From Antitrichia curtipendula (taxonomy: Eukaryota; Streptophyta; Bryopsida; Hypnales; Leucodontaceae), in NCBI GenBank assembly GCA_951230915.1, contig OX579637.1, positions 26,536,001-26,600,000 of the forward strand: 64,000 bases of DNA, in the 5' to 3' direction. Shown here in pieces: positions 8,457-64,000 of this stretch. A program made the translations under genes and the position numbers. Under the pieces are notes generated by a model. The model saw only the letters and a list, made by a program, of their open reading frames with translations, searched no databases and was not told the DNA's origin. Every line of letters begins with the position of its first letter. The first letter of the stretch is position 1.

Positions 8457-8821
8457 CGTGAAAATACCTAATGATGAATTCAAAAAAATGAACCTAGAAC
8501 AATTGATGGTAACAATTCGGAAGTATGGGAGTTGATTACTGGATCCTAGAGGACTTTAAATGGTATGTTTAAAGTAAAAGTGTACTACAATAGATAGATA
8601 AGAACTCCGGTCTTCAAAGAAGGCCGGCGTGAATAAAGTGTCTGTTCGTAATGACAATGAGCCGTTGTCCAGTGGATCAAAGGCCATTGATGCAAAACTA
8701 CTCTTCCCTTTCGAGAATAGACACTTTAGTGACTAGTACCCAAAATTAAAAATAACCAGTATTAAGAAGCATGTGGATATGCAGAATAAGTGCAAGGGAG
8801 AGGGATGTTGAAAACAATGTC
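8457..8821 (-). other. 3' untranslated region of the LINE
   Basis: Non-coding sequence between the ORF2 stop (8822) and the CACTA insertion. It holds a short hairpin (8607-8627: CCGG-T-CTTC, loop AAA, GAAG-G-CCGG) and a longer-range 10-bp inverted pair, TAAAGTGTCT at 8634-8643 and AGACACTTTA at 8719-8728. LINE reverse transcriptases often recognise structured RNA at the 3' end, so these may be recognition elements. That role is inferred. Confidence 0.5.
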
Positions 8822-8824
8822 TTA

Positions 8825-9484
8825 TTCAAGTGGGAGTGCTTGGTTATTTTTTATTTTTCTTTTATACATGATGATTGATCCGGCAAATTGTATGGCAATG
8901 GTGTTGAGTGTTTTAAAAGTTTGTGTCACAGCTGTTTCAGGTAGTTTGAGTTTGTTGACAAGAAGTTTCATTGATGGGGTATGTGTTGTTCCCTTAGCTC
9001 CTGCTGCAATGACAATAAGTGGGTCCACATTCCATCCTTGGGCCATAATGTTATTGATTAATGGTTGGTACTTTTGGATTTTGTTATCTATTGTTATTTG
9101 TGAGAATCGATCATTAGTATATGTGAATTCTATGAACTGTATAGTGATATTGTTATTTGGGGTAGTTGGTGGATTATTCTGGTATGGAAGTCTTTTAACA
9201 CAGAGGATGTCCGGTTTGAATCTAGCATTACAGTGACAGCGTTGTCTTTCACACGAGCAAGGTAAGAGCCATGAAGGAACAGTGTTTTCCTGTAGATTAT
9301 TGTTGAATGTGCCTGCGTTCATTAGTGTATAGAATCTACTTTTTTTGTTGGATATAATTAGCTTTCGTAGTTCCCATATTGCTTTGTTATGTCGTTTTAC
9401 TCTGAGAGCGTGGATATGCGGTTGATTACATTTTAAAAGTACATGGAGCCATGTGTCGATATTTGGTGATTGACATATAGAGCA
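8825..9484 (-). other. CCHC knuckle plus restriction-like endonuclease (RLE) domain at the C-terminus of LINE ORF2
   Basis: Codons count from the Met at 10120. Cys213, Cys216, His226 and Cys231 form C-x2-C-x9-H-x4-C. After it come KRHNKAIWEL (codons 242-251), a second Cys group CSCERQRCHC, FKPDIL (Pro303-Asp304), FIEFTYTNDRF (Glu331) and KIQKY (Lys350), then GWNVDPLIVIAAGAKG. A knuckle followed by RHN, PD, E and K-x2-K-Y is the signature of the PD-(D/E)xK nuclease at the C-terminus of R2-class LINEs. Elements with an N-terminal APE nuclease normally lack it. The domain looks complete up to the stop at 8822. Confidence 0.78.
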
Positions 9485-9850
9485 TGCGACTGATGGAAAT
9501 CTTTCCACACCAAAAAATAGTTGTTTTCTAGCGTTTCCCATGTATTGGCCAGTGCGGAATTTTAATAGACTTGTTTTTTGTGAATCTGTTATTTCAGGGT
9601 TGGACCAAAATTCATTAGAGAGGTCATTGTCTATATCAGAATTGAGTGTCCATTTGCTAATGCTAGGAAATCTTTGTGCCAATATTTCTATGTTTTTTTC
9701 ACGGTCTTGTTTATTGATGTATGTTTGTAGGCATCTAACCGGTCCTTTATCCGGTCGATGGGCTGGACTTGGCCATTCATCTTTTTGGTAATAGAATGGC
9801 GTAGTGTGTGCAAATTCATATGGTTTAGAGGCAAATTTGTATTCCTTTGT

Positions 9851-10282
9851 TGTACCATGTTTTGCGAGTTTGTCTGCATTTTCATTACCTACAATATTAA
9901 TGTGGGCTTTGATTTTGGAGATTGTGGTGATCTTTATTCGACTCTGAAGCATTGCTACCATAGATTCTAATATGGTTTTATCAGCATAGTTGCGGTGCAG
10001 CATAGGATGTTTTAGTTGTGTATTAATTACATATAGACAATTTAGACAGTCAGTGAATATGTGTGCTGGTTCATTTGGATATCTTGTAATGATTATTTGA
10101 AGTGTTTTATGTATGGCCATTAGCTCAGCTCTAAAACAAGTTTGTAGTCCTGGTAGTCTTTTGGAGACTTGGATTTCTTCCTTAGAGGGATTATATATAC
10201 CATATCCCGCTTTTTCACGTATCCAGTGGCCATCTGAATGTTGTTTTGGTGGTATAAATCATCCATCAGTGTAATAGCTATA
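9851..10282 (-). other. RNase H domain of LINE ORF2
   Basis: Motifs: YYTDG (first catalytic Asp) at about 10262-10276, RAELMAIHK (catalytic Glu) around 10120, IFTDCLNCLY (second Asp, codon 24 of the frame from 10120), and KAHINIVGNENADKLA (the His and last Asp). The order and spacing are those of RNase HI domains that remove the RNA strand after cDNA synthesis. The TGA at 10259-10261 replaces the residue after DG, usually Ser or Gly. Confidence 0.85.
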
Positions 10283-10507
10283 TTGCGCTGGGAATTTGAG
10301 TTGGGGGGTAGTTGTATATGTTGGGAATGGTGGTATGTGCATATTTATTGGGTTGTGATTGGTTTTATATGAGAGTTTATTCCAATTGGTATGCTTGTTC
10401 ACTGCTACATTATTAGGTGTGGGAGGAGCAATTTGTATGTGATATTGTGGTATTTGCATATCTTCGAGAATCGATGAGAGAGAATTTGTCTGGTTGGATG
10501 GGCCGAT

Positions 10508-10867
10508 ATTATGATTTTGGTGGTGTATACAAAGAATGTGTATGGCAAGGGGTTCAGTATGCGGGTGTTTTTGTAGTTCAAAGGGGATTGTTGGTTCTTC
10601 ATATGTAATAGTGTCTGCAGCAAAATGGACAATAACGTGTGTATCGTCAAATGGTCCGGTATATGGTGAAAAGTTTTGGTACCAATTTATATCTGGTATG
10701 ACTAGTATAGTTATGGTGTTTTGATCATTCTTGGATGCTAATCTAGCCCAGTGTAATGCTTGTTGGGCTGTCTCCTCATTATGAGGGTGGGCAAAACCTA
10801 TACCTTTCCATTTGTATTCAAAGGCATTACCGAGGGAACCAAATATTCTATCTCTGTCAAATTGAGA
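10508..10867 (-). other. Conserved-looking segment in the RT-RNase H linker, possibly derived from an N6-adenine methyltransferase
   Basis: Codons 729-848 of the frame starting at 13051 read FDRDRIFGSLGNAF, then GIGFAHPHNEE, then ALHWARLA, then ITILVIPDINWYQN. The pattern resembles PCIF1-like and related methyltransferases: a glycine turn, a strand ending in (N/D)PP(F/W/Y), a helix, then a strand ending in a P-x-W motif. Here the catalytic NPP(F) position reads AHPH, so the fold would be inactive or divergent. This is pattern memory only. The rest of the roughly 600-codon linker (about 12060 to 10280) has a Cys cluster, CYPKCTLECSKPC, near 11725-11765, and nothing else I recognise. Confidence 0.3.
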
Positions 10868-12399
10868 GTAAAATTGCGTGATTTGTGTAGAGCAGATAAT
10901 TGGTGAGGAGAAGTATGAATGAGATATGTTAAATGTTGATGTTATAGAATGTAGTATATTTTGTGGTAGGGTGTGGTGTGAAGTCTTGAATGGAATTTTT
11001 TTGGATTTTTTATATTTGTATCTTTGATAGAGCCATATGATTTCGGTTTCAAATGATTGTGTAGGTGGTACTAGGTCATTTATGTTATGTTTAGCAGTGT
11101 GATATTGTTTCCATAACCATTGTAATCTGGTAGTGGGGATAGTAATGAGGTATTTACCAGTGTCTTGATATAGGTGTGTGTGTTCATTTTGTGTTGTTAT
11201 GGTGTGTGTGTTTGTTAGTATGTCTTTTTCTGGGTTGCATTCGGTAGTGGAGATAGATATAAGTGGGATTATTGTTGGTGGTGGAATGAATCTTATATCT
11301 CTAAGTTGTTCATGGTTGAAGTTTATCGTGATGATGTTATTGTAGTGTTTGTGTTTTTGTTTTGTGTAATATTGTGTTAACAAAGTGATGTTATGTGTTA
11401 TTATTGTTGGTTGATTAAACGGGAAAAGGTCTCTTTGTGGCATCCATTTAGTATAGATTGTATTATCTTGAAGTGTCCATTGACATAGGTATGTATTATA
11501 TTTTTTGGAGATGTTATATTTGTCTTTTGTTTCTTTTGTTTTATGGTTTGTTATAATATGTATGGGAAGTGCATTTAAGTTGTATGGGATGTGTGTAGGT
11601 GGATTTTGTTGTTGTGGTAGCGGTGGTGGTTCTAGGTGGGTGGGATTTTCTAATGTTATTGGGTGTACATCGTGATTATCTGATACGTATTGTGCTTTGA
11701 GAGTTTGTGGTAGTGGGTGTCTTTGGCAAGGTTTTGAACATTCAAGGGTACACTTTGGATAGCAAAAAAGTTGTTCAGCAATGTTCAAAGCTCTTTTTTC
11801 TATTTTGGTTGGGATTTTATAACATATTTTGAAGTCTTTCGGTGACATGAGATTCGTGCCATTAGGGAGTGTAATGTGTTTTATTTTATAGATATTATGT
11901 AATAAGAGTTTATGTATCATTTTAAGAGAAAAGTTCTGGTTTATATGGGGTAGAATGATATTGGTTTGCGACAACCATTCTTTTTCAAGTTCTGTTGTAT
12001 ATAATTGGAAGTTGTCTTGTATACTATTGAGGTGGAGGCATGTTTCATGTTTTAGTAAAAATAGAGTCCTTGTTGTAGGCGATCGAATGCAATCCTGTGG
12101 TTTAATTCTAGGGATGTTTTCTGCACCACCAAATTTGGCTAAGATATGATGAATAAGTCCTTTATATATTATTCCTAGTCTTTCTGGATCATTCAAGGCG
12201 TTTCTAAGTTGTTCACTAATGCAACATAGATATGCATTTTTGAGTGAGAAGGCTTCTAGGCCAAATAATTCATGTGGGAGTTGTGCTATTACATTTGCAG
12301 TGCATTTTGGGAGTCCACATATTGTTTTTTGAATTCCAATAATCTTTTTATCTAGTTTTTTAATTGTTGGTAGTGAGTATGGAACTGCAAAAAAGCTAT

Positions 12400-13490
12400 A
12401 GGCTATGCCAACTCTAATTACGGTATCAATCATGTTGATTTTTTGTTTTATTGTGGCTGGACAGTTTGTAAGTTGTGCACATTGATCAGTTACTTTTTTG
12501 GTGGTGATATGGGTTTGTAGGTTCCATTTTAGCAATGGTATTAGTTGTATTCCTAAATATGTGTAAGGCTCATTTTGGTGTAAGATTGGTATTGGCTGAT
12601 TTCTATAGCTAATATTCATGGTTTGTATTTGGGTCTTGAAGGTGCCAGGTTTTATTTTTGATTTATTTGGGCATCCTGTGATTGCACATTTTGGTACACC
12701 TAAGTCCATTCCGGACCATGCACAGAATTTATCGAGTTTGTTAAGTTGATTTTGAAGTGATTTAAGTTTAGTTGATGTAGCTGCTAGGTCATCTGCATAT
12801 GCTGCAGAACTTACATATATTTTGGATGTACCTAATGTATAACCATTGTTGCCTTTTTGAAGCCATCTCAATAATGGTTCTAGAAAAATAAGAAAAAGGT
12901 AGGGGCTTAGTGTGTCTCCTTGAATGGTACCTCTATGTATTGGTATTGGTTTAGTACTACCAAATTGGTTGCCTGTATATATTGTGGTGGATTGCGAGTA
13001 GATATTTCCTATTAGTGATACTGCATCTCTAGGATACCCAAGGTCTAACATTATAGCAAGGAGTCTTGCGTGGTCTATGGATCCAAATGCATTTTTGAAA
13101 TCTATGTATAATATATAAATGTCTTGGTTTGTAAATCTTGCGTCTTCTAGAGCTGCTATGAGGAGTTGTAGCTGTCTTGATGTGCTTCTTTCTACTCTGA
13201 ATCCTTCTTGGCTATCATGTAGGATTTGGTTGCTTTCTCCGTATTCGGAAAGGATTAGAGTTAAAGTACTAGTGAAAAATTTATAGACAGTATTTGCAAG
13301 TGCAATAGGTCTATGGTTAGATAATTGGGAAGGATCTCCTTTTTTAGAGTAATATAGTTAGGCTAGTTTTCCATGATGCTGGGATTTGTTTTTGTTTATA
13401 GCATTGTTTGAAGAATAGGAAAAGTAGGTTATGGAAACATTCTGGCATATTCTTTAGGATTATATTAGGGATTAAGTCTGGACCTGGTGT
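12400..13490 (-). other. Reverse transcriptase domain of LINE ORF2
   Basis: Readable motifs: KTPGPDLIPN, then after the frameshift GDPSQLSNHRPIAL, DSQEGFRVERST, ILYIDFKNAFGSIDH (first catalytic Asp), HRGTIQGDTLSPYLF and AYADDLAA at 12788-12799 (the catalytic Asp pair). This matches the fingers and palm of non-LTR reverse transcriptases. A +1 shift at about 13345-13365 separates the first motif from the rest. Confidence 0.92.
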
Positions 13491-14432
13491 TTTATTATTG
13501 GCTAAGTTTTTTAGACAGATGTCATATGTTTCTTTATTGAGGTAAGTGTATAAAGGGATTTCGGGGGTTCCTCTTTTATCTATAACAAAGCCGTCTAGAT
13601 CATGCCATGGGTATTGTCTTACTCCACATGTACAGTATGGTGGATGTTCTGGTAAATAATAACATGTTGGTACTGTGGGTTTGTTACTAATTGATTGTTG
13701 AATGTGTATTTTGGTGGCAATGTCTTCAGGGTTTGTTAATAAGTTATTATTTCTATCCATAATGCAGTCTAATAGAGGTGTGTTTAGATTTTTAAATACT
13801 TTTTTATTTATTTTTTTGGGACTTTTTTCATATAATTGTCTGTATTTTGATATTGCTTTTTTAATACAACTTTGAGTATATTGTGTAGTAATTTTACGGG
13901 CTTGTATGTTAGCATTTTTGGCTAAGTTGGCTAGTGTTTTAATCCATTTTTGTTGATCGGGTTCTTCTATGGGAGGAGGTGGAATGTAGATATGGGTGTG
14001 ATTTTTTAGTTCTTCCATTATAGGGTGTCTTATCCAGTTTATGTTAGATTTTGTTATATATATTGCTTTCCTGATTAAGTGGTATGAAGCAAGGTGAGTT
14101 TTCCATTTTTTCTGTAATTTTCTTGGTAAAAACCCGCCTTGTTGTGCTGTGCGATTTGTTAGTTGGGGAAGTGGAGGTGCGGTGCAATTTTCAAGTATTT
14201 TATTAGATATGCTTTGTATGAGGTGATCTAGTGTGGTGCATGCTATGTGCCATTGATGGTTTGTTAGATGTTCGTTGTTGAGATTAATAGTGAGTTCATT
14301 TATTTGTAATATGTGTTCTTCGAAAAATTTTGTTTTAAATTTTTCTATATTTTCTTGTGGGATAGGGTTTAAAATTCTTGGTGGTTTGTTTTGAATTGGT
14401 AGTATAGGGCGTGCTACTAGAGTATTTGGTGG

Positions 14433-15200
14433 TATGTGTAGTGTGACGGGTGAGTGGTCTGAGTTTAGATTGTGATTATAATTAATTGTTGATGTGTATA
14501 AGTTTGGATTAGGTCCATGTATATAGTATCCATTTATTAAACTAGTGTGAGTATAGTTATTACCTCCTTGTCTGTAAAATGGGCTATTGGTAGGTATGTA
14601 ATTGAGTTGAAGGTTGTCTGTAAATGTACGCCATTCTACATCTTCTGTTTGTGGTGGGGTTATGCTAAATTCATTTTGTCTCCCGATAAGAGCAATGTCT
14701 CTATTGAAGTCACCGCACAAAATATGCATATGTTGGGGGTATAAAGATATGTGATGGGTTATGTGGTGTTGTATTTTTGGTATCAATTGTAGGTCATCTA
14801 TGTGTGAAGGCATATACATATGAAGTAGTAGCCATGGTTGTAACGGATGGTTATTTATTTTTATTATTTGCAAGTATGGTGAAAATTCGGCTTGAGTTGG
14901 GATTTTTGTGATGTTTCCTGGATATGTATATTCTTTATGTATGAGGGTAAAGAGTCCACCTCTTCCTGGTGCATATGGTCTTCTTTGTTGTATACATCTA
15001 ATTAATGCATGGGTATTGTTGAATATTAGTTTATATTTTGAAAATAAATTTTGAATGTAGTTTGTGGATTTGGTTGCAGTTATTTTTGTTTCCTAGATTG
15101 TTATTATAGCAGGGCTATGAGGTGTAAATGTTATTAATTGGTGTAGTCTTGGTAGAGCTGTATTAATTGATGAAGCATTCCATGTGGTAATATATGTTTT
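14433..15200 (-). other. APE-type endonuclease domain of LINE ORF2
   Basis: Motifs in order: TWNASSIN (strand 1 with the Asn of APE nucleases), an AIITI strand, a stop codon, ETK (the Glu of the metal site), GRGGLF, CGDFNRD (catalytic Asp and Asn) and NSDHSPVTLHI (the terminal Asp-His pair). This is the standard order in exonuclease-endonuclease-phosphatase enzymes that nick target DNA for APE-class LINEs. Only the stop at 15093-15095, next to the ETK motif, breaks it. Confidence 0.85.
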
Positions 15201-15830
15201 TGGGTTTGTTGTTGGTGTTCTTATTACATGGGTTAGTGGTAGGTCAGGTAACGGAAGAGGGTGGTAGTATTCGTCCAAGGTGTCATTACATTTCACTGCT
15301 TCTAAGAGTAATTTTTCTGGTAGAAATGGAAATTCGTTAAGCAGAATTTGTAAGGTTATTGGTTCATTTGTTTGTGTAATAAAATTATAAAGTTCTTTAT
15401 GGATGGAATTGGAAGGTACAATGAGTTTGTGGTTTCTTTCTTTAAATTGTGTGTATGGGTGTGGTGTTTGAATGTGCTGTTCTGGTGGGTTTGGTAGTAA
15501 AGCCATTTTCTGTAATAGAGACGAGGTCCAATCTGGGGATGGTGTTTGTATTAGTTGTTGGTCACATGTTTCTAATTGTGGGCTAATTGTAACAATAAGT
15601 GCAAACAAAAGTCTTGGTGGTGGATAGTGTTGGTTTCGGTAGATATATCGTGATAAGTGTGGGAAGTCTACAATTGTGTTGTGGTGTTGAGGATGTGTAA
15701 TGTTTAGTGTGGATGCAAATTTGTTTGCTAGGTGTTGGTATTCGGGTTGTAGTATTATTGTACTTGGTATAAAATACATTTTACATCTTTATTTATGTGT
15801 AGATGGATGTGTTGTAAGTATATCTGGCAT

Positions 15831-15857
15831 GGGTCCTGGATTGGTTTCTATATCTCC
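15831..15857 (-). other. 2A-like ribosome-skipping motif (GDIETNPGP) at the N-terminus of LINE ORF2
   Basis: The nine codons read Gly-Asp-Ile-Glu-Thr-Asn-Pro-Gly-Pro, an exact fit to the 2A consensus D-(V/I)-E-x-N-P-G-P. They follow a leucine-rich run (LQLHLLILLC), the usual upstream context. In 2A peptides the ribosome skips the bond between the last Gly and Pro, so this would release a peptide of about 99 residues and restart the enzyme part at Pro. Similar motifs are known at the N-terminus of ORF2 in several animal LINEs (CR1/L2/Rex-type) and in trypanosome L1Tc. An in-frame TAA lies 13 codons downstream in this copy. Confidence 0.85.
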
Positions 15858-16216
15858 ACATAGAAGAATTAGTAGATGCAATTGAAGTTTTTGGTGTTTT
15901 GAGGTTAACTTAGTAGTATTAGATTTTATTTGATTGTAAAGATAAATTTGTGTAATTTTATTAAAATGGGTGATAGTATGTGAGGTATGTTTATATATGT
16001 ATGAATGTAGTTTTGAGATATTTAATTGGTGCTTTTGGCATTGAAAATAAAAAGAAGAGTGAGAATATGAAAAAGATATGAGAAAGTACAGAATATATAT
16101 ATAGTATTGCCAGCAGTTGGCAGCGTACAATAAGATAATGCAAATAAGAGGAGGTGTAATACTAAGGTATATGTCTATGGCACTCTTTTTTTGGGTGATG
16201 GCGTTGTAAAACTGAA

Positions 16217-18527
16217 CTAGTTTGACGGTGAAGAGGGTTCTGGAGCAGTAATAGTCGGGCGGGCTAAGTTTTTGACAACTTGCATGCTTTTTGTCAAAAT
16301 ATCTTCCAAGTTTGTGAGAGCACCTCTAAGGTCATTGTCTACCTTGTTTGCATAGCTTTGTGCCTCTGTTTGCAACTCCTCTTTCATCTGGCTCATGTCT
16401 GACTTGAATTCGATCCGTAGTTTTGAATTCTCTTTGGATACTACTTCCCCTATTAAAGTTGATATTTCTTTTTTGTTGAGTGATTGCTTTGGAGCAGAGG
16501 ATGAGGCTGTGTTTTGCATTGCTTCAACTGTACTGGCAAGAGCAGTGTTTATATCCAGGAAACCCCATTTCTGGAGTGCTTCATCATCGGGTTTTGCAGA
16601 ACCGTCTAGAGAATTGGGATGGGGCTGAAACTCCACCCATTTGTGATGAAGGCGTGTCGATTTCTTCACGTGTTGTTTGTATACCGCTGCATTGAGACAT
16701 TCAATGTTGGCTATGCCGCTATGAGCGTCTCCCTTCTGTCGTGGGAAGAAGATGGATTTAACATTTCTGGGACCAATGTGATCACGTAGGGCCAAAAGAC
16801 ACTTCAGCGACAGATTTGGTGAGGTTTAGGTTTTTGACAATAAGAACTAGGCAGTTTCTCTTGTTCACCTCCTCCCGAGTTAGCTGGTTCAAATCAAGAT
16901 TGACTGGTTGTAGCAATTCTCCCAATATTGCAATCCGTTGTTGCTTAATCTTTTTGAGTTGTTCCGGTGATGTTGTTGTCAGCCATCCATAAGATTCAGT
17001 AGTGGATTTTTGAACCTGGGTTAGTTCAAATTCAAATCCTCGGCGAAAGCTCTCTTCCAGCGTTTGTTTGAAGAGATGATGGGGTTCCACGTTCCTGATG
17101 GTTTCACTGTTGATTTTGATGGAGAGTAAGGTGCTGGAGGCTATGAAATCAAATGACTTAGCAACTTTGGCAATTGTGAGCATTTCATTGTCAAGTGGAA
17201 TTGCAAAGACTCTAATGCCACGAAGTAAGGCTTTACCATCACCTTCAGGATTCTGTAAGTGGATCCTAGCCATACCTGACCAGACTTTGGAGTTTTTGGC
17301 ACCATGACACAATATTGCTATTGGGTCAGCAATGCTATCTCCTATCTGTATATTCATTTCTTGGAAAAGAAGTAGGATTTTTTGCATGGCTTGTTTTTGA
17401 GTCAACGAAATCTGAGGTTTTTCGAAGTGAAGCAATATGTGATAGTCTAGAGCCAGTTGAGTGTTCATATTTACCTCCACATCAAAAGGAATTTGTGTCA
17501 GGTTGAAATGCTGTCCGACAATGTTGTCAGGTCTGGATGTTGGCCACAGCTTCTGTTGAACACGAGGGAATGACATACGAGCTTTGGAGAGTTCCGTTGC
17601 TTCTTGTGCGTTGTATCCCTGGGCGATGAGGTCAGGTACAGATGCTTTGGTGATGAGTGGTGGCATGCCGGCTTCATAGGCAAGGGTTTCCATAGTAGGA
17701 AAACCATACCAAAATTCGTACGGAATGTGGTCTTGGGGCAGAGTCATGGTGGTGATGGTGCCTTTGGATTTCTTTTGTCCTGACTTGTCAGCTTCTGGGG
17801 TGGTGCGCTTATGAGATCCCAAAGCATCTTCCATCTCAATGTCTGGAATTGGTACATGCCTTCGTGCCTTGTTGCTGTAAGAGGGGTCCGACATTGTGCC
17901 TATATTGAGGTGTGCTTGATTAGGAGACCATATATATAAGAGTAGAATATTTTGAGCATTTTTAAAGTAGGGTGGTTTGTTATTTTTGAAATAGGGTGAA
18001 GATTTGGAAGGTTGGTGTTTTTTTGAGTAATCAAATGTTATAATAGATGTGGTGCAATGGATTTGTCTATGTATTGCACTGGGGTTGATATGTTTTTGAA
18101 TCCGCTTAAGGTATAATGTAAGAGCCCTCCCGGGAGCAAGAGGCCCCCAGGCATGAGTGGGATTGCAATATACATATAGGGGAGGGGCTGGGAAGATATT
18201 CCTGTGTAATAAGATAAAACAAAGAGGGTATAAGTTGAATAACATACCTCTGTTAGTATGTTGTACTGGACGTGAATATGGAGGTGGGGGTGTGGATGTA
18301 GCTGGGCGTCTTTGAATTCGATATTCCGTGTTCACTAGTTCAATTGGCAGAGTAGTGGGTTCTGAAGAACCGCTGGGCTTTGTGTTTCGAGCTGACTGTT
18401 GCCTTTGTACATTCACTGGAGCCTTTGGCGTTGGGCGCGGTCTAAGCTCCTTCTCAGTCCGTTTGGGATGCACCACCTTGTCTTCGGGCCTGGTCTTCAT
18501 ACAATTTTGATTGTAGTGGAGGAACAA
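16217..18527 (-). pseudogene. LINE ORF1: RRM-like and coiled-coil RNA-binding protein (one frameshift)
   Basis: Likely the RNA-binding chaperone of the element. The main frame opens at 18527. The best start by context is ATG 17892-17894 (MSDPSYSNKARRHVP), giving about 558 codons to 16217. Codons just before the shift read CLVLIVKNLNL, like RNP2 of an RRM. After the shift, HSGIANIECL (about 16694-16723) resembles RNP1. Between them the frame changes by one base at about 16782-16795, inside a TTTTGG run. A Lys/Glu-rich heptad region (roughly codons 105-165 of the 192-codon distal part) predicts a coiled coil. RRM plus coiled coil is a known LINE ORF1 type. The 211-codon upstream extension is Pro-rich (PPPPYSRPV) and may be leader sequence. 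ORF2 begins 86 bp downstream. Confidence 0.75.
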
Positions 18528-18530
18528 GTA

Positions 18531-20660
18531 ACTATTTGTTGGGGTAAAGGGAGGGTAATGCAGCTATTGTACAAATAAACATGTAAATTGGTAAATAGAG
18601 ATGTTAATGAGTAAGCTCGTTAGTTGAAGAACATGACAGTAATTGAACAAACTGAACATGAGATCAATGGAGCTGATGAGCTGAACATGAACATTTGAAG
18701 ATGTAAGCATAGTAGAGAGGATGGGCGATGAGCATTGGAGTAGATAATAATGTGCATTGAAATTGTTTGGAACTTGTGAGTACGAGTATGGGGAGGCAAA
18801 CAGGATTGAACATGTAAGCTTAATGTTTTGAAAATTAACAATTGGGCAAGTGAGTGTAATGATCTGAAATTTGACAATTGAGTAGGTAGGCATACTAAAA
18901 GGTGAGCAATAAGGTAAGAAATTTTTTGAACTAAGTATGAAGAATTGTATAGCATGTGAGTAGGGGAATGCTGTCGCATGAGCCTAGAGCCTAGAGCGTA
19001 GAGCGTAGATTACAAATGAATTTCTGAGAAGATTTGAAGTTTATAAAAAAGAAAACCTATTACCGTGTGCAATTAAAGACCTAAGACCGTGTAGTAAATT
19101 GAAGGTGATTGGGGTAAGGTTAATATAAACAAATTCAGTTGAACTAAATTTCATTGATACAAATTAAACATGTAATTATTTTGTCAATATTTTGGGTTTC
19201 AACATGTAGTAGACTTAATAATATCAAACAATTTTCATAGCAACCTATTTATGCATTACACACGTATATGAATAAAGATTTACAATGATGAAATTTCAAC
19301 TTGTGAATAGTGGGGTAGAGAATCAAACTTGTCCAAAAAAGTTCGCATGTACAGTGTGTGGTGGCGATGATGTTCAGTGAGTGATGAGTCCTTCTAGTTG
19401 TTTTGGCTCCACATGTACAGGAGTTGCTGGCTGTGTAAGGGAGGTGCTATGGCGATGGGCTGAGTCGTTTGCCTGTGCAAGGAAATCCACTTTGGCAGCC
19501 AGGCTTTGAATATTTGCGTTGGTGCAGTCTCCGTTGTTAGCTTGTCCGAGCAGGTTGTGGATCTGCTACTGCTCCATGTGCGATTCGGTGTGCTCTCCAG
19601 ATGGCGTTCGAAGTATTCCACCGAGTCTCGGGCCCTTGTGAGTTTCGGTGCGCTTGCTTGCAACTGCGGTAGAAGTAGATGGAGTTGCAACTTTGGCAGA
19701 GGGAACTTGTGGTGCCGTAGAGTATGAGCGGATGTCTGTATTACTGGGACAGAATCTTGAACTAATGGGACGTGTGTCTGTGCTAGCAGGGCGTGACCTT
19801 CGACGAGTAATGGGACATGTGTCTGTGCTAGCAGGCCATGACTGTTGGCGAGTTGGGCGTATGGACTACCGAGTGCGTGTGTCTACGATAGCAGGGCGTG
19901 ACCTTCGGCGAGTTGGGCGTATGGACTACCGAGTTGATGAGCTAGCCTGTCATGTTGCGAAGCGGAGTATTGATGTGCTAATTGGACGTGATCTACAGCA
20001 AGTTGGGCGTGTGGCTGGTCGTGTGTCTGAGCTAGATTATCTGGCTGTTGAACGAAGTAACGATGTGCGTAGGGGATTCCGGAAAATGGAGTATGGGAGC
20101 ATAGGTGTAATGCGGTAGTTTGGAGTTGCAATGCGATAGCTGGTAGGAGAAACAAGAAGATATAAGCTGGAAAGAAAGAAACTTTGAACTGAGCGAAAGT
20201 GATAGCACTTGGTACTTTTTGGATCTTCATGCGCTTGCGGATGACGGTGATGCCTTGGTTGCTGGAGTGCGCTCCAGTTAGCTTCAGTTTTTCGGTGATG
20301 TGCATCGGAATCTCAGTCCCTAGTACTCAGCGGCGCCTCCCTGCCTCCCCAGCCGCTTCAGATTCAAACGAGGCAGGGCTTCCAACGAGCTCTCCGCATG
20401 CAGACTAGGAGACCTGAAATTCCGGATCTGGCTTGTTTTTCGAAAATTTGTACTTCACTGGAGCTAACTGTTGTTGTTGTCGTGTTGAGCGTCTTGATTG
20501 GCGTAGCGACGACCCCAACCTCCAGCAAACCGAGACATCACCGCCACTTCCAACTTCAGCTCCGCTCCGCCATCGACCTCAGCGTGGTCCTATTGTTGCT
20601 TTTCTACAGAGACAGATAGTCCAGCTATTTAAGAGGTGTACTACAAAGTTATTGTGAGAT
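18531..20660. other. Probable 5' leader of the LINE, or unrelated repeat DNA
   Basis: No recognisable gene. 18560-19000 is AT-rich with recurring TGAACATG-like words. From about 19400 to 20640 the sequence becomes clearly richer in G and C and contains a minisatellite (19724-20075). Open frames run on both strands here (for example 19648-20118 plus and 19883-20305 minus), but they reflect the repeat and base composition. The position directly upstream of ORF1 suggests a LINE 5' untranslated and promoter region. That is inference. Confidence 0.4.
19724..20075. repeat. Minisatellite of about 45-60-bp units
   Basis: About seven imperfect units begin with GTGTCTGTGCTAGCAGGGCG or a variant, and several end in GAGTTGGGCGTATGGACTACCGAG. 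The two closest copies lie at about 19811-19930. It sits upstream of LINE ORF1, where some LINEs carry tandem promoter monomers. Confidence 0.65.
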
Positions 20661-21620: not shown

Positions 21621-22256
21621 GTTGTCTAGACACTCCATCTCAGCCCTTTTTATTTTCATTTTCAACTAACTTTATTTTTGTTCTTTAGCAAAAAATTTTA
21701 CCTACAATATCAACAATTTTCACAATTGTCAAGGGCCCTGACATTTCTAACCTCAAAATTCTCCTAGTCTTCTTTGAAGATGACACAAATGCAAAGAGGT
21801 AGAGTAACATCTGTCACCACATGGAAACTTGATTTCCGCATGGATAGAGTACAATAGATGGAATAGATAGAAAATTTTAAGTCTTTGTGTTTAAGAAACG
21901 GTAGTTGTCTTCCGGAGAAGCTCAAGTTTGGAATAAGCCTTCACCCGGAAAATGGTTTCCGATCCGGCTACAATAGGGTATCCGAAAATGGATCGGAACG
22001 CCGCCACCTACGGACTAGGGATCCGGGCTACAAGGCTAGAGGACACACCTTGGGAATAGAATCCTAATCTTGTTCCATTTCGGGAACTGGCGGTGGCTTG
22101 TTGGCTACTTAAGGGCCACCACCGACCTATCTCTCCTCACTTTTTGAGTTTTCCAAACTCCTCCGCGTGTAGATAGTTGAGAGAAAGTCTGGTGAGAGTG
22201 CGTTTATGGATAGAGAGAGGTGAGGTCGAATTAGGGTTTAGTCTGTCGGTGCAAAT

Positions 22257-23162
22257 ATGGCAGAAAGTTGCGGGCTAAAATCCGTTAAAGCGTCGGTCGT
22301 TGCCCGGATGGTGAGTCTGACCATACCGACTGACCCTACTGCTCGTCAGGAGTTGGAGCAGGACCTAAAACGATTAGGGTGTGCCAGATTATTGGAGAGG
22401 CCGTGGAACTTGAGAGGAGAAGATCTGATTCATGAGTTGATCGATAAGACTTCTAATCAATACGAGCTGACGGTGCGAAAACAGCCCAAGGGATGGACAG
22501 AAGATGTGTGGGCGGAAGTCTACTCATTCCGGAAGTTCGGAGAGGGACTAGCTTCTCGGGCGGATAAGTACGCCACCGGGAAGTTCCAGAACCCACCTCA
22601 CGCAAAGGAAAGGTACGCGATTAGCGACTGCGTGGACAAGCGCCATAGGAGGGTGTTAGAGTTCTTAATTTCCATACTGTATCCGGAAAAGCCTAGCCAA
22701 TTCACAGTTATGGCCGCTAACACAATTTTCGGAGCGATGGAAGAGAGGGTAGTGCATTGGAGGTGGGTCATGGCGCAGGTGGTCACAAAGCTTGCGGATC
22801 ATGTATCCAAGAGCAGGTACAATTTGATTAGCCCCTACGTGTTTCACCTCTACCACCACGGAGACGTTGATGTTGAGGACGAGATGTTGATGTACAAAAT
22901 CAGAATGGCACTGGTTAAGTACGAGCTCACGAATGAACTAGAGCAAGATGATTAGGTTTCCGAAGAAGAAGAGGACCCGAAAGAAGGAACCTTAGAGCGG
23001 AAGAAGCCCAGGCACAAGTCAACAAACCCGGGTTCACGAGGGAAACAACTAGAGACGGAATCGGGTGAACCCAACCTAGTTCCGGAAGAGGAGAAGCTGA
23101 CACTCAGGGAGTTCTTTGACATTGGGTTTGACTGGATGCACCAAGACTGGAACTTACACTAG
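22257..23162 (+). pseudogene. N-terminal part of an unrecognised repeat-borne protein, outer copy
   Basis: ATG at 22257 in good context (A at -3) opens 232 codons (MAESCGLKSVKASVVARM...). After a TAG at 22953 the same frame continues, acidic then Lys-rich (EEEEDPKEG, ERKKPRHKS), to a TAG at 23160. Readable blocks: GWTEDVWAEVYSFR, SDCVDKRHRRVLEFLISILYPEKP, ANTIFGAM and SPYVFHLYHH. The same blocks appear in the minus-strand copy at 25312-26035, so the protein was under selection in the family. I do not recognise it. A non-enzymatic, gag-like or accessory protein of a mobile element is one guess. The sequence is far less AT-rich than its flanks. It stops being collinear with the family at about 23160, where the inner copy begins. 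Confidence 0.55.
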
Positions 23163-24352: not shown

Positions 24353-26035
24353 TTACATCGCTATACCGCGCCCCAACAAAGGATTCTTGGGCTCCGCCTC
24401 CAGTTGCTCGAAGACATCTCTCAAGTTCTTGTTCCGCTCGCCAACTATCGGGTTCGGCAGATCGGAACCGGGAGAGGAATCCAGGTTGATAGGTGTTGTT
24501 TGAGAAGGCTGACTCTTCCTTGACTGAGGAGTCTGATCCTTCTCGTCTTTTGTTTTGGTCCCATCCGAAAACGACTCAGGCTTGGAGATGTCCAATAGGT
24601 GGATCCTCATGGATCCGGTCAGCTTCTGTGCGCATTCCTCCATCTGATTTGTCGCCTCTCGCGCTTGGACCAACGTCTTCTCCACTTGCTCGGAGAAGTC
24701 TGTCAGGATCCGAACTATCCGGGAACCGGATAGTTTCTTATCCTCCAAGACCTTCTTGTCGAAGAGCCTAGCCTTGACTGCCGCGCTTCCGATTTCACCG
24801 AAAGTTGTCTTCACCGCTTCGGCGACCTTCTGCGTCTCGTCCGCCATCTCCCGGGTGGCGGTCATGTCTTCTTTGAAGGTCGCAGCTTTCGCCTTCAACA
24901 TGTCGACTTCCTCCTGAAGTCTACGGATCTCGGCCTCTTGTTTCCAGATCTTGGCCGGATTCGTGATGCAATCCACCACCTTTGTCGGTAACTCGCCGTT
25001 TGGTGCAGCGTGCACCATCTTTCCAATCCTCGAGAGGATCCTCCTTTTTGCCTCTCAATCTTCGCGGATGTCGCAGAGGATCTTGACTAGTTTCTCGAAC
25101 GGATCTCCAGGTTCCTTCTTCGAGGTACCTGCCTTTTCCGCTTCCGGTGTCTTCTCCTTACCGGATTTGTCCCCGATTGGCGATCCTCTTCCGGTTGGAG
25201 ATGTTGTCTTATGCCGCTTGGGCGGCCTCTCCTTCTCTTCTTCTTCTTCTTCTTCCTCGGTCTCAGATTCGATTTCTTCTTCCTCATCATCTGATTCTGA
25301 CTCTCCGTACTTCAGAAGATTCCCTCGTCTTCATCATCTGATTCCGACTCTCCGTATTTCAAGAGAGTTGTTTGAGCCTTCCACTCCTTCTCTTCTGAGT
25401 CCAACAGGAGTTGGTGATGCTTGTAAAGGTGGAAGAGGTAGGGACAAACCGGTGTGGGCCTACTTCTTCCGACCCTTGTTGTGAGCTGGGCCACCAGATC
25501 GAACATGATCCGAGCCTAGTCCGCCTTCCGGTCTCTGCTTAGAGCTTCGAAGATTGTGTTGCCAAGGGTTATCGTCACCCTCGTCGGCTTCTCCGGATGC
25601 AGGATTGGGATCAAGAATTGGAGAAGTTTCCGATGCCGGTCGTCTACGCAGTCCTCTACCACGTATCCGTCCTTGGGATTGACAGCTCCCCGGAACTTGC
25701 CCCGGATGTACTCGTTGTTCCAGTTCGCCATCCCGTGACCCCTACCCGGAACTTGTACACCTCTCTCCAGATCTCTTCCGTCCAATCAGCCGGAATACAT
25801 CTCAGCATATTGTCAAATTGATTCGTCCATTTCCCCTGGATCTCTTTTACCATCCGCTCATCTTAAACCCCCAGAGTTTGTCTAGCAGACCCTGACATCC
25901 CATCCGGGTGAGATATGTCCTAAGCATCTCCGTCTCCTCCTCTGTTGCGGGGAGAACTAAAACGACCTTCCGGAGTTTAAACGGAACTGATGTGGATGCC
26001 CCTGGTCTATGCTTCCTAAGCTGCGGCATGGACAC
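24353..26035 (-). pseudogene. Inner, inverted copy of the unrecognised protein with C-terminal coiled coil
   Basis: Starts at ATG 26033-26035 (MSMPQLRKHRPG), about 240 bp downstream of a TATA box. Family blocks DWTEEIWREVYKFR, EDCVDDRHRKLLQFLIPILHPEKP, GNTIFEAL and CPYLFHLYKHH appear in several frames, so there are multiple shifts between 25860 and 25310. An acidic run coded by a GAA/GAG microsatellite (about 25230-25260 on the plus strand as TTC repeats) and a basic tail (RPPKRHKTT) precede a 221-codon intact coiled-coil stretch (25018-24353, KIWKQEAEIRRLQEEVDMLK). A TGA separates DPFEKLVKILCDIRED from this final stretch. Function unknown. Confidence 0.55.
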
Positions 26036-36007: not shown

Positions 36008-36389
36008 TTAGTAAAAAGATTTAATCTTTTTGACTGACTTTTAGGCATTCAATTAAAAGTTCGTTATTGCCAGTCGTCAGATACATTTTGATGTGACCGT
36101 CAAAAAGTCTAGAGTTATCCCTTTAAGGGCCTAGACTTGTTCAGGCATTTACTTAGATTTATTTTACTAACTTAGTACTAGAATTTTTACAGAATTTCAA
36201 GATAGGTGTGGGGCAACGTCAACCATGATCCTACTACGACATTCTCCCGCAACATTAGGTTAGAATATTAAAGTAGGAATAGGAAGCAGCTCAATATTAT
36301 CAAGATTCAACAGCCCTCCAGTAGTACCTAGTTTTCACATTTCAAGAGAAGTAAGTAGCCCTTTTAACCTTTTCAATTATATTTGTGAT

Positions 36390-39300
36390 TTGCTTGGATC
36401 GGTCACTAAAGCACCCTTGCCCTGTACGGTTGGATTAGGTTCACTTTTACTAGATAATGGTAATCAAATCAGAACACCACTCACGTCAGGACCAGAGTAC
36501 TTTAAAGTTTCTAAAGATGAAACCAATTTGTTACCCGTTCCTAAGGACTCGCTATTGCCTCCATTGATTGAAGGCAAACAAATTATAACTCCACCAATTT
36601 TGGAACGGGAACATGAAAATCTTTTGGAAAATGAAAACGAACAAGGACTCGTGCCATTAGTGGACGACATTCCTTTTGAGGAAGCTTGCCTTCTGGAGAT
36701 AGATGGTACTCAGAACATAGACTGGGACTCCATCTTGCCAGAAGAAGCCCTTTTACCACCATTATACGTACGCAAGACCGCTGAAGGCTTGCAGATAGGG
36801 TCTGATGTGATTACATATCCATCAGTACCTAATGACTGGTATCATGGACCAACCGATCCGGTTCATGTCCAGACTTCTAACTGGAAAGAGATAGATGTCT
36901 CATTTCCAGGAGAGGAACCCAAGCTCATAAAGGTGGGAACCCATCTCGAAGGAGAAGAATTACAAGCCTACAAATCTTTGATTATGGAATACTGAGATGT
37001 ATTTGCATGGTCCTATTTAGATTTTCGAGGAATTCCCACTCATATCATTGAACACACCATCCCAGTAATACCGGGAACTTTGCCTATTAGACAAAGGCAA
37101 AGACTGATGAACCTGTCCTTGCAACTTGTAGTCAAAGCCAAAATCGAACGATTACTCCAAGCCCAATTCATCCAACCCATAGAAATTACTGATTGGGTTT
37201 CACCGATGGTATTGGTAAAGAAGAAAAATGGTAAACTTCGAGTGTGCATAGATTATCGACAATTGAACAAGCACACCCGAAAAGATCATTTCCCTCTTCC
37301 ATTCATTAATACTATAGTGGACGAGGTAGCGGGAAACGAACTTTTCACTTTCATGGATGGATACTCAGGCTATAACCAAATCTCGATCGCTCCTGAGGAC
37401 TGGTCGAAAACAGCCTTTATCACCCCATGGAAAACATTCATCTACAAGGTAATGCCATTCACCCTCTGCATTCCAAAGAGTCATGAGTTTCGCTTTCTCG
37501 GATTTGCTCCATAAATCTACGACAGTTTACATTGATGATTTTAGCACCCAATCTACTAGTAAAGAGCATCTCTCTTTGGTACGGGAGTGCCTCATTCGAT
37601 GTAAACAGACAGGGATAGCATTAAATCCTGCCAAATTGTTTTTAGGAGTTAAAAGGGGAGTTTTATTAGGATTTGTAGTGTCCAAAGACGAGAAAATGGC
37701 CGACCCTAAAAAGGTAGAAGTCATCGTCAAGCTTCCTCCTCCTACTGACGTCAAAGGTATACAACGAGTCTTAGGACATGCGGGATATTACCGTGATGCT
37801 ATAGAGGATTATGCCACCCAGGCATTACCTCTCACAAATTTAACCAAAAAGGCTGTTAAATTTGACTGGACTCCAGAATGCCAAAGCAGTTATGATGAGC
37901 TTAAAAGAAGGTTGACCACTGCCCCCGTTTTAAGAGCTCCGGATTGGAACCGTCCATTCCATATATACTGTGACGCATCTGCAGTAGCCGTGGGCAGTAC
38001 GTTATGCTAGGTGGCGGATGATACAAATCACGAACATCCGATCGTGTTTGCCAGCCGACAATTAACATCCGCCGAACGCAATTATACTACTACCGAAAGG
38101 GAATGTCTTGCGATGATATTCTCCGTTAAAAAATTTCGACACTACCTCCTAATGAACCAGATAGTTTTTTTTGTTGATCATATGGCTATTAAGTATCTGT
38201 TTAACAAACCTGACTTAAGCGGTAGGCTCGTGCGATGGGTGCTACTACTTTCAGAATTTGATTATACGGTGGAATTTAAGCCCGGAAAGAAACACCTTCG
38301 GGCCGATCATTTATCACGGTTATCCATGGAATTGGGAACTGAAGATGTTAATGATGAATTTCCTGATGATCAACTATTTGCAGTACGATCGGTACCTACT
38401 TGGTATGAGCATATTGCTCAATTTCTAAATTCTCAGCAATATCCTGATGGTTTAGATAAGAACGAACGTCGGAAGATCCGGATTAATAGTACCCACTTTG
38501 CAATAGTGGCCGGTAAATTATACCGGCGAGGTGTTGACGGAATCCTTCGACGTTGTGTATCTTATGATGAAGTGGCATCTATATTGGAAGCATGCCATGG
38601 TGGGGCATGTGGAGGCCATTTCTCAGGCCGATTAACTGCTCAAAAGATCCTCCGAGCAGGATACTTTTGGCCAACCTTGTTTGCAGACGCCGAAGACCAC
38701 ACTAAGGGGTGTGATGCATGTCAGAGATATGCACGCAATGACATGCGATTGGACTTGCCTCTCCATCCATCACTACCCATTGCTCCATTAGAAAAATGGG
38801 GAATTGACTATGTTGGACCGTTTGCCCCAATTTCGTCATGGCATAATCAATATATCATCGTTGCTACGAAATATTTGACCAAATGGACAGAGGCCAAAGC
38901 AGTAAAAACTGCAGATGGAAAACAGACGGCGCTTTTTCTCTATGAGAACATCATCTCTCGCTTCGGTTGTCCAAAGATCTTAGTCAGTGATTGAGGATCG
39001 CATTTTCTCAACGAAACTATTGAGTTGATGACCAATATGTTTCAAATTAATCACCAAAAGACTACGCCCTATCACCTCCAAACCAATGGTCACACCGAAC
39101 GAGTGAATCAAACATTGGTCCGAATCCTCCGCAAGACTGTTACTGACAATAAACGAGATTGGGATGTCAAGTTACAAGCAACATTATGGGCTTATCATAC
39201 TACATATAAGGTCACTACTCAGACTACTCCTTTCGCCTTAATGTATGGAATTGAAGCCATTTTACCAATTGAATTTGAAGTACAATCATTACGAATTGCT

Positions 39301-39648
39301 ATCGACGCACGTATGGACGACACGAGTTCTCTACGAGAACGCTTAGAACGACTGGAGGCACTCAGTGAATCTCGGAGATTGGCTTCGCAACATGTAGAGA
39401 CCATACAAAGGCGTCGGAAGGTGGCCTTTGACAAACGAAACAAAGTACGTTCTCTTGAAAAGGGTATGTGGGTTATGGTCCAAGATGCCCGGAAACTCGA
39501 ATTTCCCGGAAAATTTGATGCTTTATGGACTGGCCCATACATCATTGAAGAAGCCTTCATCAACAATTCTCTTCAACTAAAGAATTTAGATGGCTCGGTG
39601 TTCCCCACCCGAACAAACGGAAGTAGGTGCAAAGAATATCGAGTATAA
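36390..39648 (+). pseudogene. Gypsy pol: reverse transcriptase, RNase H, integrase (broken)
   Basis: The frame is open from about 36254. Codons before TGA 36993 are a spacer without a protease signature. RT motifs: LRVCIDYRQLNK, FMDGYSGYNQI (Asp) and VYIDDF (37525-37542). RNase H: FHIYCDAS, TTERECLAM and FVDHMAIKYL. Integrase: an HHCC knuckle around CHGG, GHFS and CDACQ; then GIDYVGPF (Asp), LVSD just before TGA 38992, and TERVNQT (Glu); then a WTGPYII tail. No chromodomain follows, which fits Tat/Athila. Breaks: TGA 36993, a deletion with frame change at about 37463-37483 that removes the RT segment after MPF, TAG 38008 and TGA 38992. The last stop replaces a residue next to the second catalytic Asp. 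Confidence 0.9.
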
Positions 39649-45601: not shown

Positions 45602-48021
45602 AGAAGCTTGCTTACTAAACTAGTAGCCCATTGCTATTCACGATAGTTGTAAGTTCCAATCTCCATGATGCCCCTTCTCCAAACTATATTCCTGAAGTCC
45701 CCTCTTGATAGTTTGTACTATACGCTTCGTCAATCTATCCGCTTTGGATGATCTTTTGAAGTAGTGCAGTGATCAATCATTGCTTGTTTATATAAGGCTT
45801 GAAATTCACCAAGAAATTTGTGTCTTTGGTTTGTCAACACCTCTGCTGAAATTCCAAAGTGACTCAGAACGCAATTGAAAAATAAATAACTTGCCCCTTC
45901 ATTGAACTTGTCAAGCAATGCCACCAATTCAATCCACTTAAAAAAATGTTCAATCATTACCAACACATACTTGTTATGTTCTAGTGTCACTAGCAATGGT
46001 CTTGCAAAATCCAAATTCCACCTATAGTCCAATCCCATGATTGACAATGGTTGTAATTGAGGCATCGGGGTATTAAATGATGTCGACATTCTATCCTAAA
46101 CCGTGCATCTGGCTTCCAATTGTTGGACTTGCATTTGCATATCTTGCTACTAATAGTGAATTTGAAGCAAGTTGTAAGTACTCTGAATTCCAAAGTGCCT
46201 CAAGTCCTTGTGTGCATGGATAATCAATTTCACTCTTTTATGAGGCGATGGTACTACTTTCTTGTTGCATCTTACAACACTTGAAGCAAATGAGCCTCTT
46301 CCTATACACACCACTTGGCTCGCTGTAGAATCTGGTCTTTCTCTTTGGTTGACAATGTAGTTGCCAATTTGCCATGCTTTAAGTATTTCATAACCTCTAC
46401 ATCATCAAAATTATCTTTGGTGCCTCTAGACTTTTCACTTCCATCCGCATCCATTGTGGCCACAATAGCTTCCTCAGAAGGTCTCTCTAGTCACCGCTAA
46501 CATACTTAAGTAGGTGGCACAATGCCAACTTAGTAACAAATGTTTTTCCTCCTCTACGTGCCATTGAGCCCTCATAGAGTTCACTTGGCTAAGACTTGGA
46601 TTGTGGCTCAAGACGTTAGCATCTATATTCACCAAATCGGCATAGTATACAACTTTAAAGTCATACTCCATTAGCATTAGAGCCCATTGTGCAAGATTTC
46701 TTGTGAGTTTGTTGGACTCCATTAGACACTTCAACAATTGGTGGTTTGTCACTAATATAAATTAGTTACCAAACAAATAGCATAAAAAATGAGCAATGAC
46801 ACAAATCACTACTAAACACTCTCCTTCATATGAACTATATTGAACCTCCACATTGTTGTTAAAATGGCTAGCATAAGCTACCACAAATACTTTGTCATTG
46901 TCATCCATTTGAGTCAACACCACGCCAATCCCTAATGAACTCCAGTCAATATGTAATTGATATGTCCTACCAGAAATTGGCCTCCTCAATATTGGTACTG
47001 ATACTAAACATTCTTTCAAATGCTTGAAGGTGCTTCTTGCTCATCTTCCCACATCCAAGGTTGATCACTCTTTGTCAACATGGTTAATGACTTTACAATG
47101 GCACTAAATGTCTTCACACATTTTCGGTAGTAATTACACAAATCAAAAAATGCTCACAACCTACTCACATCTTTCAACCTAGGAATAAAAATCATCACAT
47201 CCACCTTACTAGCTACTAATCCTACTATTCCTAATCCACCATGATATATCATGTGATCCAAATACTCTACATAATCATAACAAAACTTACATTTGTTTGG
47301 ATGTAGTTTAAAATCATGAAGCCTTAGTCTAGTAAACACCTCCATCAAATGAGCTTTATGTTGTTTTTGATTAATGCTATAGACAATAATGTTATCAATG
47401 TAGCATTTCCACAAAATTCAAGCTAAAAAACATGTGATCTATAATTCTTTGAAATTCCGTTGGTGCATTTTTCAAACCAAATGGAAAGAATCTCCATTAA
47501 TATAGGCAATCTTTCTTATTCTCATCAAATCTCCAAAATGCCATATTTTCTTTATTACTTTCTTAAATATCAAGTTGGTGATAACCTGACTAGAGATCCT
47601 AATTACCTTAGCATGGCTAATAGCATTGAAATTTCTTCTGATGTTGGCATTGCATAATGGTCCGACTTGGTAAATTTATTAATTCTACAATAGCCACCAT
47701 ACATCTTTTTCTTGGTCCAATTTTCATAGACATCTTGGATGGTATAATCGTTGCTAATGCATATTTATAATTCAATGAAGCTAACTCCACCAATTCTGCC
47801 TCCAATGACTCCTTAGTCCAGGCTTGGATCATCTTGCATATAATCTCACTATACTTGTATGGCTTGTAATAAATTGGCACATCATTTGTCAAGTTCATAA
47901 GAACCTCTTGTCCCTTCAACACTCCTAATTCTTTGAGACTAAAGACAAAACCATTCATGTACACTTTGAAGAACTCTTGTTCCTCCTTCATCTTTGCTTC
48001 ATCTTCGAGATCTACTAACAA
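44880..48021 (-). pseudogene. Second, heavily decayed Ty3/gypsy pol
   Basis: Fragments in order on the minus strand: RT N-terminal part (48021-47617: NDVPIYYKPYKYSE, LASLNYKYALATII); RT core (47414-47154: CYIDNIIVYS, where the usual YxDD reads YIDN, then FKLHPNKCKF); RNase H (47019-46762: YQLHIDWSSLGIGVVL, SSYEGECLVVI); connection (46752-46474); integrase core (46089-45730: MGLDYRWNLDFARPL, YVLVMIEHFFKWIELVAL, and the SHFGI region); integrase tail (45601-44880). Each part sits in a frame broken by stops or shifts, and YIDN lacks the second catalytic Asp. Decay is clearly deeper than in the plus-strand element at 36390-39648, so it is older. No LTRs were identified. Confidence 0.85.
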
Positions 48022-48087
48022 CTACCAAATTTTTTTGGCCATTGCATCTCAAACTTAAGGAAGGACAATTTTTTAACAGATATTGTA

Positions 48088-48359
48088 TTGATTCAGTGGC
48101 TTCATACCTGCGTACTATAATCGTACATATTACGTGTATTTGGACACACTGAATCAGTGCCAAAACAATGAATATCAATAACGTATGATTCTTATACTAT
48201 TATCAGTATAGTTTAGGTGCATTTTGGATATCACATTTGTATAATTAAAGTACATCAATCGTACGCTTTTGGAAAACTTTTTAATGACATTGATTCAGTG
48301 CGTCTAAATACACGTAATATGTACGATTATAGTATGCAAGTATGAAGCCACTGAATCAG
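48088..48359. mobile_element. MITE with long terminal inverted repeats and TA flanks
   Basis: The first about 72 bp (TTGATTCAGTGGC...) are the near-exact reverse complement of the last about 72 bp (...GCCACTGAATCAG). Matching blocks include TACTATAATCGTACATATTACGTGTATTT. A roughly 130-bp loop lies between them. TA flanks both ends (48086-48087 and 48360-48361), which fits a Tc1/mariner-like origin. There is no coding capacity. It sits just upstream of the decayed minus-strand gypsy pol. Confidence 0.85.
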
Positions 48360-48749
48360 TACGATCATTGTACGCAAGTATGCAGCCTCAAAGTTTGAGA
48401 TGTGCATCTTCATTTTCTTCTTTTGAAGCAAGTTTTTCCATCCTTGGTTGCAGAGTCCTCTTGCTCCACCCTAGCCATATTATAATACCCTTCAATTTGG
48501 ATTCAGTGCTATAGTTCTTCTGTTTGGTCCTCTATATTCTCCTTAAACAATAACTTCTCTACGTGCTCTTTTTGTTTGATTTTATGTTTGTCTAGTTGCT
48601 TCCAACTAGGCCAACTTGTTCATGAAAAATAAATTATCCTTCCACAAGTCCCATGAATGAGCTACAAAAGCTTCACCTCCATCACAAGTTTAGACCCTAC
48701 AATTTGGCAACAATTATTATGCAGTTATCGTTGTTTCATGGGTTTGTAC

Positions 48750-63769: not shown

Positions 63770-64000
63770 TCATAGAATTTCATTTTGAAAGTGAGTTGAA
63801 TAAATTTGTATAGTTTTTAAACACGCTCTAGTATTTGAATGCACAAAAATATTTACTTTTTGTGTGAAATTTAATGCACCCACACGTGAATAAAAGAAAA
63901 TGGGAATTAAACCGGACCTGTACTTTATTAATCCACCCCCATCACATGTCATAGAATTTCATTTTGAAAGTGAGTTGAATAAATTTGTGTAAATTTTAAA

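Follow-up and report, generated by a model that had tools for sequence, protein, structure and literature searches.

Long interspersed nuclear elements (LINEs) normally carry a single endonuclease. R2 elements are not known to have an apurinic/apyrimidinic-type endonuclease (APE), an RNase H or a PCIF1-like domain, and insert site-specifically in 28S rDNA. The L1 and RTE LINEs of plants carry an APE, a reverse transcriptase (RT) and sometimes an RNase H, insert at dispersed sites with target duplications and have, to our knowledge, neither a restriction-like endonuclease (RLE) nor a PCIF1-like domain. LINEs of the Dualen/RandI group were reportedly described from green algae by Kojima and Fujiwara in 2005; the Dualen of Chlamydomonas contains a cysteine protease as an accessory domain, which is not taken as group-defining. 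Elements encoding both APE and RLE form the Dualen/RandI group, which is also among the clades with an RNase H (PMC4640811). LINE/Dualen has been reported in cryptophytes (PMC12747079), and a review of land-plant transposons gives L1 and RTE as the sole LINE superfamilies (PMC9033089). No report of Dualen in a land plant was found in the literature searched on Dualen, retrotransposons and plants, little of which came from subscription journals. Here, an element of ~11,989 bp on the minus strand (8590–20578) of a stretch of 64,000 nucleotides (C5:26536001–26600000, "the window") is described. It is very probably a decayed copy of a Dualen/RandI-group LINE, an autonomous retrotransposon using target-primed reverse transcription, in the genome of a streptophyte, probably a land plant.

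The second open reading frame (ORF2) of this family joins five domains without a change of frame: the APE, the RT, one resembling PCIF1, the RNase H and an RLE of the R2 type. This was seen in a sister copy (L009) from the same host assembly (400,189,583 bases, 303 contigs), in which a single uninterrupted frame of 2726 amino acids runs from a 2A motif through to the RLE. Copies were located by a PF12237 search of the assembly, which gave at least 38 matches; 20 of these were read as 10-kb stretches, together with 14 flanking stretches. The RT, PCIF1_WW and RNase H models scored above their Pfam cut-offs in L009 and the APE below (E 4.8e-4); for the RLE, the corresponding piece of the window was aligned with the C terminus of L009 as reference. 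Long frames were also found in L010 (1962 amino acids) and L011 (1878 amino acids). The copies compared are 72–98% identical in DNA to the window or to L009 and fall into several subfamilies.

The window copy itself is split into several frames (pieces at 15789–16325, 15093–15788, 13344–15092, 10259–13357 and 8822–10258 in a six-frame reading), and alone it cannot prove a single protein. Pfam detected RVT_1 (7e-29) and RNase H (8e-12) and, between those two, a PCIF1_WW match that had not been expected (PF12237, 1.7e-13); the APE was weak (PF14529, 1e-3, below cut-off), and the RLE part was recognised by none of the Pfam models. The prospect that two LINEs, one with an APE and one R2-like with an RLE, were nested or mis-assembled into a false dual-nuclease element is nonetheless negligible in the face of the L009 frame, of L010, L011, L012 and others that match the window over ~7 kb at 72–80% identity, and of relatives (for example P0151, P0164 and P0197) in which Pfam and profile searches gave the same domain order within one protein. 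An earlier note on this DNA, made from the sequence of the window, had placed APE, RT, RNase H and a C-terminal RLE in one ORF2, and the open frame of L009 bears this out. RT and RNase H were identified by Pfam, the APE by the match of its profile to L1 endonucleases and the RLE by its R2 fold.

The ends of the element were defined by comparison of copies. The 3′ end at 8590–8591, with a hairpin and a (TATC)n-like tail, is common to L013, L015, L019, L026 and L023, and is exact to a few bases; L013 and L015 are 5′-truncated. The 5′ end is approximate: L018 and L026 match the window, in pieces, to 20575/20578, and for L019, L022, L023 and L025, whose 5′ region differs from that of the window, the match stops at 18808. 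Exact flanking repeats of 9–12 bp were present in six of the seven copies tested (for L018, 9 in the scan and 12 on the flank read-out), as against 7 bp at most in 42 swapped-flank controls. The six targets differ; all begin with TA when read from the tail junction, and this TA is perhaps partly shared with the tail. Ends, truncations and target duplications fit target-primed reverse transcription at dispersed sites.

The APE domain (14442–15188) carries the motifs TTWN (15144–15188), ETK (15069–15092), CGDFNRD (14697–14717) and NSDHSP (14442–14465), the first of which falls in the stretch of ORF2 that links the 2A motif to the APE (15096–15788). The catalytic E, Y, GDxN and SDH motifs of APE endonucleases are present, and in an alignment of six sequences including the window, columns E1, Y93, D128, N130, D212 and H213 are invariant. 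At one further conserved acidic position the window copy departs from the other five, consistent with decay. When the APE profile was compared with the PDB, endonucleases of LTX and L1 gave the top matches (2e-16 to 3e-13), and exonuclease III came next. The C-terminal part (8834–9652) comprises an R2-type zinc knuckle and the RLE, with a CCHC knuckle at 9428–9484, RHN at 9362–9394, PD at 9203–9220, E at 9119–9142 and KIQKY at 9059–9085, that is, the CCHC, RHN and PD...E signature and the fold of the R2-type enzyme. Across a 29-sequence alignment of distant relatives, the knuckle is invariant or nearly so and the catalytic residues of the RLE are invariant.

Selection was estimated as median Nei–Gojobori ratios of nonsynonymous to synonymous substitution (dN/dS) over stop-free stretches of 12 chosen copies (8–11 readable per domain), with pairs of dS >0.25; the median dS was 0.73–1.34, and the pairs are non-independent. 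The medians were 0.08 for the APE (25 pairs), 0.14 for the RLE (19 pairs), 0.09 for the RT (21 pairs), 0.12 for the thumb (29 pairs), 0.08 for RNase H (45 pairs), 0.13 for the PCIF1-like domain (28 pairs) and 0.15 for the segment before the PCIF1-like core (38 pairs). These values point to purifying selection on all five ORF2 domains across the host subfamilies, with clear constraint on APE, RLE and PCIF1-like domain. Constraint on both nucleases in the same lineage argues against one being vestigial, as do the invariant catalytic residues of the RLE. Were one nuclease a vestige and the element a plain LINE of the APE or the RLE type, the dispersed insertion and target duplications would fit an APE alone, but we consider such an element distinctly unlikely. 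If both enzymes act, they would make staggered nicks; given that insertion is not tied to one site, the first strand would more likely be nicked by the APE, and the RLE may bind DNA, cut the second strand, or both. LINEs with both nucleases offer the best evidence on how the change from RLE to APE came about. The bearing of the element on that transition is advanced only in part. Land plants have been described with only L1 and RTE LINEs (PMC9033089), so that this dual-nuclease family, diverse and in part intact, in a plant-like genome with large contigs offers a system for testing the roles of both enzymes.

The RT core (12542–13345; YADD region 12779–12805; PF00078, E 7e-29) was placed with relatives collected by a query with the RT piece (277 matches, 120 listed) and by a profile of six longer relatives (202 matches, 120 listed), which gave 222 distinct proteins among the matches listed. 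A FastTree tree of 176 rows, which omitted 50 of the 222 for incomplete RTs, and an IQ-TREE tree of 66 hand-chosen rows agreed; the labels "algal RandI" and "other LINEs" in them are our own. Together with 11 further rows, the window makes up a clade (98/96) nested within one of 49 rows (100/96), the named members of which are exclusively green algae, namely Pleodorina starrii (P0085) and Haematococcus lacustris (P0169, P0185). The 14 rows of other LINEs and the three of R2 stand outside it. The best PDB match of the RT was R2 (96 bits, as against ~55–56 bits for human L1 ORF2p). These scores, the presence of an RLE and the clade argue for a position of the RT apart from plant L1 and RTE, the tree being without rows of either. 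With both nucleases in a single ORF2 (L009), in one frame with RT and RNase H, and with the RT apart from R2 and from the 14 other LINE rows, membership of the RT in the Dualen/RandI clade is supported, and the assignment made in the earlier note stands.

Several points weigh against this assignment. The clade was identified by its architecture and its Pleodorina and Haematococcus members, in a tree without curated Dualen rows. An RLE alone is no group marker, because the RLE profile also matches 9 of the 24 other LINE rows weakly. No cysteine protease was found by Pfam in the L009 frame; a Josephin domain is present in P0085 and P0185 and is not among the domains given for P0121, P0151, P0164 and P0197, and so varies within the group. 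As for the mode of insertion, the flanking repeat of the window copy is only 5 bp.

Likeness to Dualen/RandI thus consists in APE, RLE, RT and RNase H together, in an RT clade shared with named green-algal proteins, of which Haematococcus P0185 carries all four domains, and in non-A 3′ repeats, RandI having (ATT)n and (CTATTT)n (PMC3747384). The window element differs in its host, a streptophyte and probably a land plant, in a 2A motif a short way ahead of the ORF2 enzymes, in the lack of a detected cysteine protease and in a PCIF1-like domain, which occurs in relatives too but is absent from the parts of the group descriptions consulted. With R2 (PDB 9nl2, 9nl3, 9dou, 8gh6) it shares a related RT and a C-terminal zinc knuckle and RLE of the same fold and order; membership of the R2 clade is contradicted by an RT outside the three R2 rows and by seven copies with different flanks, the family inserting at dispersed sites. 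From plant L1 and RTE it differs in having an RLE and a PCIF1-like domain, and in an RT whose score against R2 exceeds that against human L1. The RNase H (9836–10282; YTDG at 10262–10282, RAEL, TD, GNENAD) is crossed in the window copy by an in-frame stop.

The PCIF1-like domain (10463–11212) has the fold of a cap-adenosine N6-methyltransferase. Its model (116–365) matched human PCIF1 (417–668), a match that covers the methyltransferase core, though the Pfam model is named "WW domain"; FASPLN, FGS.G and the position of NPPF are in common. Judged by this fold and sequence homology, the domain is a homologue of PCIF1 and is not claimed as an active member of the family, from which it differs by its place in a retrotransposon polyprotein and by the replacement of the catalytic Asn and Phe in the host copies. 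The window reads AHPHN (within 10772–10798), with His at the catalytic Asn position. The motif position was readable in 15 of the 21 host copies, none of which keeps NPPF (HPHN in ten, HPDT in four, HPPN in one). All 15 have the same His in place of the catalytic Asn, and this constancy hints at a positive role. Human PCIF1 activity is reduced by N553A and F556G (PMC11550742), and both residues are replaced in all the readable host copies. Catalysis has therefore probably been lost in the host lineage, as far as these residues tell; the minority of relatives that keep NPEY may still be capable of methylation. In eight relatives of the window clade, the core is 55–72% identical to the window, as against 33–55% for two spacers, the HNP-rich one and that before RNase H; the corresponding values for two relatives are 58–63% in RNase H and 64–75% in the RLE.

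The domain would descend from a cap-adenosine methyltransferase and, in the host lineage, would be a conserved module for binding RNA or the cap, by which the protein takes up its own capped full-length transcript more readily. We tentatively entertain, without holding it to be the probable course of events, the wider reading that capture of a host cap-adenosine methyltransferase domain was an ancestral hallmark of Dualen/RandI, that the domain became in the plant lineage a dead but strictly conserved reader of the capped 5′ end of the element's own RNA, and that LINEs with two working nucleases lasted into the land plants. Some observations tell against these readings. The motif is without letters in 6 of the 74 aligned rows (the window and 73 relatives), and only 22 of the other 68 retain Asn-Pro, so that the loss is common in the group and not host-specific. 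The count of 75 out of 75 for the domain is biased, the second search having been seeded with PF12237-carrying sequences, and in the unseeded search the domain is missing from 3 of the 14 relatives of >700 amino acids, perhaps since these sequences end too early. The His, moreover, could support other chemistry. That the domain is still an active methyltransferase, with His for Asn, which methylates the element's own RNA or the target DNA would accord with strong purifying selection, the invariant His, the fold match and the NPEY kept in 17 of the 74 rows; set against the replacement of both activity-affecting residues, it is unlikely.

The PCIF1-like domain ties a retrotransposon to mRNA cap modification and suggests a testable means by which a LINE might locate its own transcript or mark it; its combination with two nucleases may change views on the evolution of such elements and their recognition of their own RNA. 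No report of a PCIF1-like or methyltransferase domain in a LINE or other non-LTR retrotransposon was found in the literature searched, again little of it from subscription journals. A 2016 survey of eukaryotic adenine methyltransferases, reportedly by Iyer and colleagues, may touch on such a domain. Additional modules were seen in relatives: a chromodomain-like stretch before the PCIF1-like domain in P0045 and P0092 (Pfam Chromo E 1e-4 and 0.003, under cut-off) and a PHD finger between RT and PCIF1-like domain in P0151; these may be chromatin-reading modules.

Upstream of the ORF2 enzyme domains lies GDIETNPGP (15831–15857), which conforms to the 2A/StopGo pattern D(V/I)ExNPGP. It or a variant was found in 12 of the 20 copies read from the same genome and before the APE in relative P0063. 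Such a motif would split a leader off the ORF2 product during translation. According to a 2026 study, StopGo motifs are almost missing from plant viruses, yet functional in plants (PMC12846837). A 2A-like NPGP was seen in the N-terminal part of P0142, P0185, P0209, P0211, P0212 and P0220; the NPGP matches in P0014 and P0143 were judged not to be 2A-like. A Josephin-type cysteine protease occurs in P0085, P0185, P0209, P0212 and P0220, four of which also have a 2A-like motif, and algal RandI elements may thus make use of StopGo.

The host was assessed from the assembly and from the surroundings of the element. Exons of auxin-response-factor domains gave 14 matches in the assembly. A Ty3/gypsy polyprotein lies in several frames at 36264–39645; its 38011–38991 piece is 75% identical to a JGI entry, the best among the matches listed, which also include Calypogeia fissa (43%), PITA_25310 (44%; the prefix we take to denote loblolly pine), Tanacetum (42%) and Adiantum (42%). 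The PF12237 matches are spread over contigs C1 to C10, nine of which are 25–56 Mb long. Because the nearest named RT relatives are chlorophytes (Pleodorina, Haematococcus), contamination of a plant assembly by a green alga, or horizontal transfer from an alga, deserves mention; it is very improbable in view of the spread of the 38 matches over these contigs of a 400-Mb assembly, the separation of the window clade (98/96) from the rows labelled algal RandI, its division into several subfamilies within the host and the plant relatives of the neighbouring Ty3 element; an ancient transfer is conceivable. The apparent land-plant origin suggested earlier is likely on the auxin-response-factor exons, the Ty3 relatives and the contig distribution, but not proven. 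We regard the host as a streptophyte, in all likelihood a land plant and perhaps a bryophyte, and less probably a streptophyte alga.

The remaining parts of the element are a 3′ untranslated region (8590–8821), which terminates with the hairpin and tail, the first open reading frame (ORF1; 16220–17894, first Met at 17894), split over two frames in the window copy, and a region 5′ of that Met (17895–20578) with short tandem repeats at 19763–19934. The C-terminal half of ORF1 has, by eye, the appearance of a coiled coil, and no Pfam family scored above cut-off. ORF1-like DNA is present 5′ of ORF2 at 70–97% identity in L009, L011, L012, L014, L018 and others. Relative to the L009-type subfamilies the ORF1 region has ~70–72% DNA identity and ORF2 ~80%, ORF1 thus diverging faster. 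Elsewhere in the window, two related frames on opposite strands (22242–22952, plus; 25519–25785, minus) have a DCVDxRHR stretch in common, decayed Ty3/gypsy-like fragments were called by eye at 45733–48021 (minus), and an inverted repeat with 122-nt arms, 80% complementary, lies at 48082–48365. A 179-bp satellite (53 copies, 96% matches) occupies 54503–64000 and runs past the window end.

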